Origin: Chryseobacterium sp. KACC 21268
GTDB taxonomy: Bacteria > Bacteroidota > Bacteroidia > Flavobacteriales > Weeksellaceae
DNA length: 64,000 bases
Direction of reading: 5' to 3'
Assembly: GCA_028736075.1 (NCBI GenBank)
Contig: CP117875.1
Coordinates: 2,914,001 to 2,978,000, forward strand
This document shows, one piece after another, positions 25,589 through 28,889 of this stretch; position 1 is the stretch's first letter; the number at the start of each line of letters is the position of its first letter. The notes below the pieces were generated by a model that did not search any database, was not told the DNA's origin, and saw only the letters and a program-made list of their open reading frames with translations. Both the position numbers and the translations under genes were made by a program.

Positions 25589-25838
25589 CGTTTTACCTTG
25601 CGTAAATTCTTCTTCATTTTATTTAATTACCAAAAGAGATTATTAAGAGCTATCTGATATGGACGTCAAATAGTATAAGTCTTCTGTTCTTTCGCTTATA
25701 GTCTTAAATTTATTTTTCCTACTACCTTCTTTTGACTTAGACTTTTAAATAAGTTTACAACTATTATAAAAAAATAAATTAAGTAACAATTCAACTATTT
25801 TCTTTCTTGATCTGATATTTTTAAGTAATTTTACATTA

Positions 25839-25922
25839 TGCTTTAGGGGTATTCTGAAAAGAATTGAGAGAGTCCCTTTGAACCTGATACGGCTAACACC
25901 GACGTAGGGAAAAGCAATAAGT
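25839..25922 (+). ncRNA. TPP riboswitch (THI element)
   Basis: The conserved THI-box blocks are present in order: GGGGTATTCTGAAAAGAATTGAGA (25847-25870), CCCTTTGAACCTGATACGG (25876-25894) and CTAACACCGACGTAGGGAA (25895-25913). The outer helix P1 is formed by TGCTTT (25841-25846) with AAAGCA (25913-25918). It lies 67 nt upstream of thiM and should turn the operon off when thiamine pyrophosphate is plentiful. Confidence 0.95.
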
Positions 25923-25961
25923 CATTCACTTAAAAATGGCTGTTGTTTCTTTTATTTTTCC

Positions 25962-25971
25962 TAAAGCATTT
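25962..25971 (+). promoter_or_regulatory. Candidate expression-platform strand of the TPP riboswitch
   Basis: CCTAAAGCAT is the exact 10-nt complement of ATGCTTTAGG at 25840-25849, the 5' side of riboswitch helix P1. It sits 18 nt before the thiM start. Pairing of the two would open P1, so this can be the ligand-free alternative structure, which would leave the translation start in a different context. No T-run terminator is seen, suggesting translational control. Confidence 0.5.
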
Positions 25972-25989
25972 ATTTTAAAATATTTGAAT

Positions 25990-26784
25990 ATGGAAAATAA
26001 TCTTTGGAAACACATCCTTACTGTTAGAGAATCGTCCCCTCTCGTACACAGCATCACCAACTATGTAGTAATGAACAATACCGCTAATGCACTTCTTGCC
26101 ATCGGTGCCTCTCCTATTATGGCGCACGCCAAATCTGAAATGGAAGAAATGGTTTCGATTTCTCATTCTCTGGTCGTGAATATCGGGACATTGGATGAAT
26201 ATTGGGCAAAATCAATGTTACTGGCAGTGAAAAAAGCCAATTCATTAAACAAACCTTGGGTTCTGGATCCTGTTGGAGCTGGCGCCACTTCTTATCGCGA
26301 CACTGTACTAAGCGAACTTTTAACTTTGAATCCCACAGTAATCCGTGGAAATGCATCAGAAATCATTGCTTTGGCAAAGGCCAATGTCACAGCAACCAAA
26401 GGCGTTGACAGTACAGCCAAGAGCGACGAGGCCATAGAGGCAGCAAAAAATCTGGTTCGAAATTATGGTTCGATCGTCTGTATTTCTGGCGAGACAGATA
26501 TTATCATTAATGATAAACAAGGTATATTTTTAAAAAACGGCCACGAGATGATGACAAAAGTAACAGGACTTGGTTGTACTGCATCAGCACTGATAGGCGC
26601 ATTTGTTGGCGTCATCGAAAATAAAACAGAAGCTGTAGCCACGGCAATGAGCTTACTGAGTATTGCCGGTGAGTTGGCTTCTGATCTAAGTGTTGGACCG
26701 GGAAGTTTGCAGCTTCATATCATTGATAAGATTTTCAATATGACGGAAAAAGAATTTTCACATCATCTTAAACTAAGCTATTAA
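25990..26784 (+). CDS. thiM: Hydroxyethylthiazole kinase ThiM
   Basis: ThiM phosphorylates the salvaged thiazole (THZ) with ATP to THZ-phosphate. The 264-residue protein starts at the ATG at 25990. An ATG at 25936 in the same frame is rejected because it lies in the riboswitch expression region and adds an unrelated hydrophobic stretch. Seen motifs are HSITNYVVMNNTANALLAIGASPIMAHA (substrate site), LDPVGAGATSYR, ROOTED by GNASEI, and the catalytic/anion-hole segment VTGLGCTASALIGAF with the conserved Cys. It overlaps thiE by one base (TAATG) as the first gene of the thiamine salvage operon. Confidence 0.93.
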   Translation: MENNLWKHILTVRESSPLVHSITNYVVMNNTANALLAIGASPIMAHAKSEMEEMVSISHSLVVNIGTLDEYWAKSMLLAVKKANSLNKPWVLDPVGAGATSYRDTVLSELLTLNPTVIRGNASEIIALAKANVTATKGVDSTAKSDEAIEAAKNLVRNYGSIVCISGETDIIINDKQGIFLKNGHEMMTKVTGLGCTASALIGAFVGVIENKTEAVATAMSLLSIAGELASDLSVGPGSLQLHIIDKIFNMTEKEFSHHLKLSY

Positions 26785-27422
26785 TGAGCCTTCATCCAAA
26801 ATTTCCTTATCAGTTGTATTTGGTCATTTCTGAAAAAGATTGCTTAGGAAGAAACTTTCTGAAGGTTGCAAAAGAAGCTATCCTCGGCGGTGTTGACATC
26901 ATCCAGTTGCGTGAGAAAAATATTGGAAAGAAGGAATTTCTTCAAAAGGCATTGCAGCTAAAGGACGTTACAGAAAAATACAACATTCCGCTCATTATCA
27001 ATGATCACCCTGAAGTTGCGGAAAAAGCTGATGCCTTTGGAATTCACGTCGGAAATAATGATATATCCCCGACATCTTTGAGAGATCAATCATTCTTCAA
27101 AAACAAAATGATCGGCTACTCTATCGAGTACCTAGAACAGTTGGAAAATGAGCAAACCTCTACTTCAGATTATCTTGGAATAAGTCCGATATTCAGTACC
27201 AACACAAAAGAAGATACGGTGACTGAATGGGGAATTGATGGTCTTACGAAAATCAAAAGCTTAACAGACAAACCTTTGATTGCTATTGGAAATATCAATC
27301 TAGAAAATGCACAAATGATCATGAAAGCTGGCGCAAATTCCTTAGCGGTGGTCTCTGCAATATGCGCCTCCGAGAATCCACAGAAAACAGCTTCCGAACT
27401 TAAAAATGAAATATTGAAATGA
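26784..27422 (+). CDS. thiE: Thiamine phosphate synthase ThiE
   Basis: ThiE couples HMP-pyrophosphate and thiazole phosphate to thiamine phosphate. The 212-residue TIM-barrel protein shows GGVDIIQLREKN (pyrophosphate site), PLIINDHPEVAEKADAFGIHVGNND, GYSIEYLEQ, and the phosphate-binding end PLIAIGNINLENAQMIMKAGANSLAVVSAI. In many homologues the fourth block begins LGxxD; here GNNDIS is close to that. It overlaps thiM by 1 nt and thiD by 4 nt. Confidence 0.93.
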   Translation: MSLHPKFPYQLYLVISEKDCLGRNFLKVAKEAILGGVDIIQLREKNIGKKEFLQKALQLKDVTEKYNIPLIINDHPEVAEKADAFGIHVGNNDISPTSLRDQSFFKNKMIGYSIEYLEQLENEQTSTSDYLGISPIFSTNTKEDTVTEWGIDGLTKIKSLTDKPLIAIGNINLENAQMIMKAGANSLAVVSAICASENPQKTASELKNEILK

Positions 27423-28252
27423 AAAAATACACTTATCCTTCCGTATTGACAATCGCAGGTTTCGACGGAAGCGGTGGCGCAGGTATTCAAGCGGACATCA
27501 AGACTTTTTCGGCTTTGGGATGCTATGCCACATCTGTTCTCACAGCTTTACCAGTACAAAACACACAAGGCGTGAGGAAAATCTATCCTATTCCAATGGA
27601 AGCTGTCGAAGAGCAAATAGAAGCGGTGCTAGATGATATTTTTCCAAGGGCTATAAAAATTGGAATGGTTCATACACCAGAATTGGTGGAAACGATCGTT
27701 AATACACTAAGAAAATATCCAAAAATCCCAATTGTATTCGATCCCGTTATGGTTGCCACCAGCGGACACCGATTGATCGAAGAAGAGACCATCACCACCA
27801 TAGTAGAAAAGCTCTTTCCTATAGCCGAGATCATTACACCAAATATGGACGAAGCTACGATCCTGGCCGACATGAAAGTGAAAACTTTAGAAGATATGGA
27901 GAACGCAGGAAGAATCATTCTGAAATCTGGATGCAATAATATTCTGCTGAAAGGAGGCCATCAGGAATCGCCAATAATTACATCTTTATTATTAAACCAA
28001 AACGGTGAATTAACTTCTTTCGAAACTGAAAAATTTGTCACCAACAACACCCACGGATCCGGCTGTACGCTGTCTTCCGCAATTGCAGCTTTTCTGGCTC
28101 ATGGCGAAGATTTGAAAAGCGCTGTAACTCTTGCACAGGAATATGTTTTCGAAGCTATAAAAAATGGAAAAGACGTCGTCACCGGAAAAGGAAATGGTCC
28201 ACTCAATCACTTTTATAATCCAATTAAACTAATCAAAAATGAAATGGTCTGA
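27419..28252 (+). CDS. thiD: Bifunctional HMP/HMP-phosphate kinase ThiD
   Basis: ThiD phosphorylates hydroxymethylpyrimidine twice to HMP-PP, the partner of ThiE. The 277-residue ribokinase-fold protein has the start VLTIAGFDGSGGAGIQADIKTF, the segment IKIGMVHTPELVETI, VFDPVMVATSGHRLI, ITPNMDEATIL and the ATP/catalytic motif NTHGSGCTLSSAIAAFLA with the usual Asp position occupied by Ser-Gly-Cys context typical of ThiD. The start ATG overlaps the thiE stop, and its 3' end overlaps tenA by 14 nt. Confidence 0.93.
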   Translation: MKKYTYPSVLTIAGFDGSGGAGIQADIKTFSALGCYATSVLTALPVQNTQGVRKIYPIPMEAVEEQIEAVLDDIFPRAIKIGMVHTPELVETIVNTLRKYPKIPIVFDPVMVATSGHRLIEEETITTIVEKLFPIAEIITPNMDEATILADMKVKTLEDMENAGRIILKSGCNNILLKGGHQESPIITSLLLNQNGELTSFETEKFVTNNTHGSGCTLSSAIAAFLAHGEDLKSAVTLAQEYVFEAIKNGKDVVTGKGNGPLNHFYNPIKLIKNEMV

Positions 28253-28889
28253 ATCCGCTTGGCTACGAATTGAAGAACGATATCAATCAATATTGACAAT
28301 ACCTTTCATCTTAGAATTGTCTGATGGAAGCCTATCTAAGGAAAAGTTCCAGTTTTATATGGCGCAGGATTCTTTGTATCTTGAACATTTTGGTAGAGCT
28401 TTGTCGTTGATCGCAGCACGAGCCCATCATATAGATGATACATTAGAATATATGCGATATGCAGAAACGGCAATCGTAGTTGAAAATGCTTTGCACGAAT
28501 TTTATTTTGAGGATTTTGGATTGACTGAAAGAGGAAAGATGCAGCCAGTCTGTCATCATTACGTTCACTATCTGAAAAGCACAGCAGCTTTGGATCCGGT
28601 GGAAGTTGGAATGGCTGCAGTTCTGCCCTGCTTCTGGATCTACAAAAAAGTTGGGGATCATATCTACAACAACCTTCAATCTGACAACAATCCTTACCAG
28701 AAATGGATCGACACGTACGGCGGAGAGGAATTTGCTGAAGCTGTCCAAAAAGCCATCGACATCTGTAACAGAGTTGCCAATGAAACCACTCCAGCAATGA
28801 GAGAAAAGATGACGGAAGCGTTCATCACGGCTTCGATTATGGAATATCATTTTTGGGAAGCGGCGTATGATCTGAAGACGTGGATTTGA
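28239..28889 (+). CDS. tenA: Aminopyrimidine aminohydrolase TenA (thiaminase II)
   Basis: TenA hydrolyses aminomethylpyrimidine released from degraded thiamine, giving HMP for ThiD, so it completes a salvage route. The 216-residue helical protein contains FYMAQDSLYLEHFGRALSLIAARA, the active-site cysteine segment MAAVLPCFWIYKKVG, WIDTYGGEEFAEAV, and the late glutamate in EYHFWEAAYDLKTW. It begins within the last 14 nt of thiD and ends 30 nt before a strong terminator. No thiC or thiG is present in the window, so de novo synthesis is not shown. Confidence 0.92.
   Translation: MKWSESAWLRIEERYQSILTIPFILELSDGSLSKEKFQFYMAQDSLYLEHFGRALSLIAARAHHIDDTLEYMRYAETAIVVENALHEFYFEDFGLTERGKMQPVCHHYVHYLKSTAALDPVEVGMAAVLPCFWIYKKVGDHIYNNLQSDNNPYQKWIDTYGGEEFAEAVQKAIDICNRVANETTPAMREKMTEAFITASIMEYHFWEAAYDLKTWI

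Follow-up and report, generated by a model that had tools for sequence, protein, structure and literature searches.

A TPP riboswitch upstream of a Chryseobacterium thiM operon that probably hides the translation start region through three competing RNA strands

The analysis presented here suggests that the TPP riboswitch ahead of the thiM operon of Chryseobacterium sp. KACC 21268 is, with good probability, a translational OFF switch in which three strands (the P1 strand, a pivot element and the thiM initiation region) compete for pairing, with neither a Shine-Dalgarno (SD) sequence nor a terminator. The window analyzed is a 64,000-nucleotide stretch (CP117875.1, positions 2,914,001 to 2,978,000, forward strand) of a single-contig genome of 4.07 Mb. 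The strand sequences, their conservation, the mutual exclusion of their pairings and the calculated energies were established directly, and the direction of control is taken from the OFF logic known for the family. In the absence of TPP, the pivot (25960-25969) would pair with the 5' strand of P1/P2 (25838-25847) and break P1, the thiM initiation region would be open and the operon would be translated. In the presence of TPP, binding would pay for P1 and, with the aptamer holding this helix, the pivot and its neighbors would be freed; the linker would then fold on the start region of thiM, 25956-25961 pairing with 25992-25997 and, outside this helix, 25944-25950 with 26006-26012, and the 30S subunit would be unable to load on the closed start. 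We infer this block of ribosome loading upon TPP binding. A switch between P1 and an alternative helix that acts on translation had been proposed in an earlier note on this DNA and is the best-supported reading, with the downstream strand retained in 10 of 10 own-genus loci, its pairing better than in shuffles in 82 of 89 thiM leaders, and neither a terminator nor an SD in evidence. The proposal was nevertheless incomplete, as it had missed a second, competing pairing between linker and initiation region, which is needed because the start lies outside the pivot element: the P1-strand helix accounts for the sensing of P1, not for the action of the switch. The features of the locus are as follows.

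25826-25833, + strand: candidate promoter -7 box TAATTTTA, one mismatch to TAnnTTTG
25835-25927, + strand: TPP aptamer (RF00059; cmscan, full model, 74.1 bits, E 9.8e-13)
25838-25847, + strand: P1/P2 5' strand ATGCTTTAGG, first partner of the pivot and exact complement of 25960-25969; conserved core 25840-25847
25840-25844 (GCUUU) with 25911-25915, + strand: helix P1, from the Rfam alignment
25920-25941, + strand: spacer hairpin AGTCATT / AATGGCT (25920-25926 with 25935-25941) between P1 and pivot, predicted fold
25944-25950, + strand: outer arm of the start-site hairpin, TGTTTCT, pairing with 26006-26012 (GGAAACA), predicted fold
25956-25961, + strand: inner arm of the start-site hairpin, TTTTCC, pairing with 25992-25997 (GGAAAA), predicted fold
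25960-25969, + strand: pivot CCTAAAGCAT, pairing with 25838-25847, its CC also in the inner arm of the start-site hairpin
25990-26784, + strand: thiM, hydroxyethylthiazole kinase, ATG at 25990 (TIGR00694, 281 bits over cut-off; start aligned to relatives)
26784-27422, + strand: thiE, thiamine phosphate synthase (TIGR00693, above cut-off)
27419-28252, + strand: thiD, HMP / HMP-P kinase (TIGR00097, above cut-off)
28239-28889, + strand: tenA, thiaminase II (TIGR04306, 138.2 bits, cut-off 130)

The RF00059 match spans model positions 1-105 and scores 74.1 bits versus a gathering score of 54.3. The aptamer itself is ordinary, and its binding of TPP in the cell would be expected from the known OFF logic of the family. 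It sits upstream of the thiamin genes thiM-thiE-thiD-tenA, the products of which all score above the cut-off of their NCBIfam models, and the operon is a vitamin-B1 salvage operon. In the direct type of TPP switch the start codon lies within 15 nt of P1 and the initiation site is buried in the aptamer (PMC2258182); here, 74 nt separate the end of P1 (25915) from the ATG at 25990. Hairpins resembling the spacer hairpin in this interval were recognized by eye in relatives. The spacer hairpin also contains, directly after P1, a further ATG in the frame of thiM, 54 nt ahead of its start (25936-25989), and the frame from this ATG is open through to thiM in the window but not in most own-genus relatives. 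An N-terminal extension of ThiM with ATG 25936 as the usual start was considered and rejected, the in-frame ATG being found only in L001, L005 and L010 of ten own-genus loci. On the promoter side, a TAnnTTTG motif was detected 5-8 nt before a reference point adjoining P1 in 79 of 88 thiM leaders, versus 4% in shuffled flanks, and the 5' strand of P1 is therefore probably the first part to be transcribed. A sigma-70 promoter scan of the leader returned two weak promoter-like sites, which is chance level, and these were discarded.

The upstream strand of the first pairing, ATGCTTTAGG, combines the 5' side of P1 (25840-25844) with the two preceding bases and the AGG of P2, and its partner, the pivot, lies upstream of the thiM ATG. 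The 10-nt exact complementarity previously described between these two strands does exist, at 25838-25847 and 25960-25969; the coordinates assigned to it (25840-25849 and 25962-25971) were both 2 too high, and the identification of the upstream strand with the 5' side of P1 applies to GCUUU (25840-25844) and leaves out the two bases ahead and the AGG of P2. Exact complements of at least 10 nt between the P1 5' region and the 74-nt linker were obtained in 4 of 5000 dinucleotide shuffles of the linker, and the duplex energy of P1 strand and linker in the window (-15.1 kcal/mol, shuffle mean -6.2) was equaled by none of 200 shuffles. Pairing of the pivot with the P1 strand excludes P1. The calculated ensemble energies of the two states are -44.0 kcal/mol with the pivot on the P1 strand versus -41.8 kcal/mol with P1 formed, and across the thiM leader set they are near balance; in an unconstrained fold of the whole leader, neither state appears cleanly.

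The conservation of the pivot pairing was assessed within the genus and across thiM leaders. A TPP-switch match was found in all 23 own-genus genomes, above cut-off in 10 of them, and in all 10 of these the full 8 pairs can form between the P1 strand GCTTTAGG and a partner located 117-122 nt further downstream. The switch lies directly ahead of thiM in nine of these ten loci and 1.3 kb from thiM in G021 (L179 / L004), where the intervening ~1.3 kb reads, by eye, as acetyltransferase-like frames and a thiM-start-like remnant immediately follows the pivot. ThiM is present in 84 of 306 family genomes. From 163 ThiM loci (L061-L223), 120 with an aptamer identified by text pattern, 89 leaders passed the filters of at least 50% ThiM identity, AGGGG at P1/P2, a linker no longer than 130 nt and a distinct combination of linker and start; those left out include L070, L093, L185 and L201 (pattern miss), L085, L184 and L192 (wrong anchor), L109 and L113 (long linker) and L179 (switch not adjoining thiM). 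The pairing of P1 strand and linker beats 95% of shuffles in 82 of these 89 leaders (median energy -13.2 versus -7.3 kcal/mol for shuffles), the remaining seven being L102, L103, L110, L117, L128, L133 and L177. The leader of L093 (Epilithonimonas hominis) is the same as that of the own-genus genome G006. L092 (Sphingobacterium faecium, from another order) encodes a ThiM with 74% identity and carries a leader very near the Chryseobacterium/Epilithonimonas type, and horizontal transfer of the operon together with its switch is likely, judging from this resemblance.

Individual base pairs were counted in the leaders of the class, of which 112 of 156 could be anchored and 61 were distinct. Only 8 of the 10 pairs are conserved (GCTTTAGG/CCTAAAGC), the two outer columns pairing in 14 and 37 of the 61 distinct anchored leaders; these counts were anchored on a CCT motif, which fixes most pairs and leaves only the fourth and eighth free of the anchor. 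Since the leaders are related to one another, neither these nor the other leader counts given here are independent. The eighth pair is kept in 59 of 61 distinct anchored leaders, where 500 shuffles averaged 46 and never exceeded 52, and its base retains its pair within P1 as well in all 61. This pair is G-C in the thiM leaders (35 of 35) and A-U in most thiS leaders, a change that is common to a gene class and amounts to a single change rather than to many independent events. The covariation of the downstream strand with P1 that had been called for as support was thus found in part: the eighth pair moves from G-C in thiM to A-U in thiS, and a third gene class uses a different strand pair.

The second pairing involves the start itself. 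In the predicted fold of the window, UUUUCC/GGAAAA and UGUUUCU/GGAAACA clamp the AUG region into one hairpin, the inner helix of which includes the G of the AUG, with A and U in the loop. The segment 25917-26025 folds better than its shuffles (z -2.23, with 5 of 200 as good). A plain test of the duplex between linker and start is not significant in the window alone (p 0.55); because this test is weak at a single locus, we also calculated what it costs to open the start within the folded segment. Opening positions -8 to +9 of the thiM start in the window costs 9.1 kcal/mol with P1 formed versus 2.5 kcal/mol with the pivot on the P1 strand, the former value standing at p 0.07 against shuffled linkers, and the AUG triplet is not more paired in the repressed model (unpaired 0.65 versus 0.43). 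In the window alone the start-site hairpin is therefore weakly significant and the case rests on the relatives; because of the p values of 0.07 (opening cost) and 0.55 (duplex test), the second arm at this locus is plausible and not proven.

All 89 thiM leaders have a higher opening cost in the P1-formed model than in the model with the pivot on the P1 strand (medians 7.9 versus 2.7 kcal/mol), and in 84 the gap is no smaller than 2 kcal/mol. In 83 of 89 leaders the natural linker closes the start more than its own shuffles do on average, with p at or below 0.05 in 34, and the plain duplex test reaches 0.05 in 26. As in the window, the repressed model of the thiM leaders shows no gain in pairing of the AUG triplet (median unpaired 0.56 versus 0.36); only its flanks are more paired. 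The sequences of the inner arm vary among relatives, including GTTTTCC/GGAAAAC and, in Flagellimonas, TTGTTCC/GGAACAA; in Empedobacter-like thiM leaders CCATTAATTG pairs with CAATTAATGG, and in those of Flavobacterium CATATTTT pairs with AAAATATG.

The AUG itself is paired in the leaders of thiS and of a transporter class. The thiS leaders of genus g6, by inference Chryseobacterium, combine the linker CATTCCTAAAGT with the start TTTAGGAATG, and the strand that pairs with ACTTTAGG of P1 also pairs with the start codon. L002, a second TPP switch in the genome of the window and one of the leaders with a paired AUG, matches CGCCCCTT to AAGGGGTG of P1/P2 and CCTTTTATTCT to AGAATGAAAGG across the ATG, and it is in this leader that the hairpin is strongest; the frame that follows is called a putative outer-membrane thiamine transporter, from the resemblance of its start and the gene described in the consulted part of PMC5613172. 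The other thiS leaders of the class came from 87 phylum and family loci, 31 of which were not parsed; among those parsed, 20 thiS loci of the class (19 distinct) were picked by eye, and L290, L291, L292, L297 and L300, also of the class, were omitted as other genes. In shuffle tests at 0.05, for which 2 of 50 loci (L037, L054) could not be anchored, both pairings were significant in 20 of 20 transporter leaders, L002 among them, and in 28 of 28 g6 thiS leaders; among the other thiS leaders of the class, the pairing with the P1 strand was significant in 16 of 19 and that with the start in 11 of 19. A further type of thiS leader in the class (L225, L238, L241, L308, L309, L310) has a GTTTAC-like element as complement of the P1 strand and its start beside a separate hairpin.

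Linkers and starts were also swapped among five leader classes, sampling up to 14 leaders per class out of 156. Every class of linker closes its own starts most, save for one near-tie in which the linkers of the other thiS leaders close g6 thiS starts (10.0) slightly above their own (9.5). The start in the window is closed at 9.1 by its own linker, at 6.0 by GGCTTT-type thiM linkers, at 4.9 by transporter linkers and at 4.1 by g6 thiS linkers. For the class as a whole the evidence is strong, and for this one locus it is moderate. In a cobalamin riboswitch of the same genome (L312, G000:C1:1901138-1901322), the ATG of the downstream frame lies within the hairpin GUCAUCAUUA / UAAUGGUGAC; from this instance, burial of the start codon may extend beyond TPP switches.

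The observation that no U-tract follows the pivot, made in the earlier note, holds in that an intrinsic terminator scan found no terminator-like site in 25700-26100. Terminator-like hairpins occur in 1 of 156 leaders of the class versus 9 of 31 leaders from other classes of the phylum. None of the 156 class leaders, that of the window among them, has an SD-like motif (GGAG, GAGG, AGGA) at -18 to -4, a stretch that stops short of an AGGA directly ahead of the thiS AUG; the motif is present in 16 of the 31 leaders from other classes, with starts placed roughly at the first long ATG frame. Several of the latter (L234, L247, L255-L259, L278, L279) have GC-rich hairpins followed by T-runs, often with an SD-like GGAG. 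The phylum thus seems split in how its TPP switches act. Ribosomes of Bacteroidia are described as failing to recognize the SD, initiation depending on adenines upstream and on low structure around the start (PMC9976891; PMC6847099).

These results bear on three other explanations. A chance match in AT-rich DNA could account for complementarity of which two out of ten pairs are not conserved; with 4 of 5000 shuffles reaching this length, the pairing kept in 10 of 10 own-genus loci and significance in 82 of 89 thiM leaders, it is very hard to credit. Somewhat less improbable, though still a poor prospect, is that the alternative helix with the P1 strand functions alone, changing access to the mRNA or its stability, and that what folds at the start site of the window is an accident of AU-rich sequence. 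That the start-site pairing of the window is not significant by itself would fit this proposal; the strong start-codon hairpins of thiS and transporter leaders and the class-specific swaps speak against it, as does its logic, which is the wrong one, for without a second partner the alternative helix would have no obvious effect at the start.

The alternative that deserves most weight, while unlikely, is transcriptional control, in which P1 formation would lead transcription to end before thiM, through an intrinsic terminator or through Rho acting on the exposed pyrimidine-rich linker. The linker does contain a U/C-rich stretch, and a 2019 preprint by Costliow, Degnan and Vanderpool, which may already contain part of the present finding, reportedly names, in its title, regulation of transcription or translation by TPP riboswitches in Bacteroides. 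In B. thetaiotaomicron, moreover, the mRNA of a biosynthesis operon controlled by a TPP switch drops with thiamine (PMC5613172, in the part consulted), for which mRNA decay after a translation block, or Rho-dependent termination, may be the cause. Against transcriptional control stand the absence of a terminator-like site from the leader and the scarcity of such sites in the class (1 of 156, versus 9 of 31 in other classes), and an RNA-seq survey including Bacteroides data in which, according to the portion consulted, 6 of 57 TPP switches were transcriptionally active, none of the six from Bacteroides (PMC12121620). It also leaves the match between linker and start region unexplained. The translational switch of three competing strands remains the preferred reading. 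It proposes an answer to how a riboswitch can repress without an SD, by hiding the start codon region itself, and makes predictions at the level of single bases; the leaders also provide parts for controlling genes in this phylum, and a natural setting in which to test how SD-free initiation depends on structure around the AUG.

The thiM gene of Escherichia coli is controlled by a TPP riboswitch of the translational antisequestor/sequestor kind. The switch described here resembles it in its presumed OFF logic and in that P1 formation would displace an antisequestor in favor of a sequestor hairpin at the thiM initiation site. It differs in that the window has no SD, the linker pairing instead with the start codon region and first codons, and in that the antisequestor consists of the 5' strand of P1 and the AGG of P2, with which the transcript probably begins. 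In the classical form the hidden element is the SD sequence, which is the case neither in the window nor in the class. The general scheme of the antisequestor/sequestor platform has been laid out previously (PMC2258182, in the part consulted). Within the same phylum, the TPP switches of B. thetaiotaomicron precede thiS, outer-membrane transporter and pnuT genes, and the mode of action of TPP switches in Bacteroidetes was called uncertain in 2017 (PMC5613172, in the part consulted). Start-codon burial is not described in the titles and abstract openings of the literature searched, which had no preprints and few subscription journals within its scope, nor in the consulted parts of a B. thetaiotaomicron transcriptome paper and a cobalamin riboswitch paper. 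The TPP switches from other classes of the phylum (31 leaders) belong to the same aptamer family and differ in their terminator-like (9/31 versus 1/156) and SD-like (16/31 versus 0/156) elements. We would give even weight, for and against, to the broader proposal that metabolite riboswitches across Bacteroidia have converged on a pivot that pairs with the closing strand of the aptamer or with the start codon region, thiM, thiS and transporter leaders doing so through different sequences and a cobalamin switch of this genome also having a start codon within a hairpin, and that the class boundary separates this design from the SD- or terminator-type TPP switches of the phylum. The logic, that of antisequestor and sequestor, is already known; the variant is that the start region is hidden instead of the SD, in a class whose ribosomes ignore the SD.
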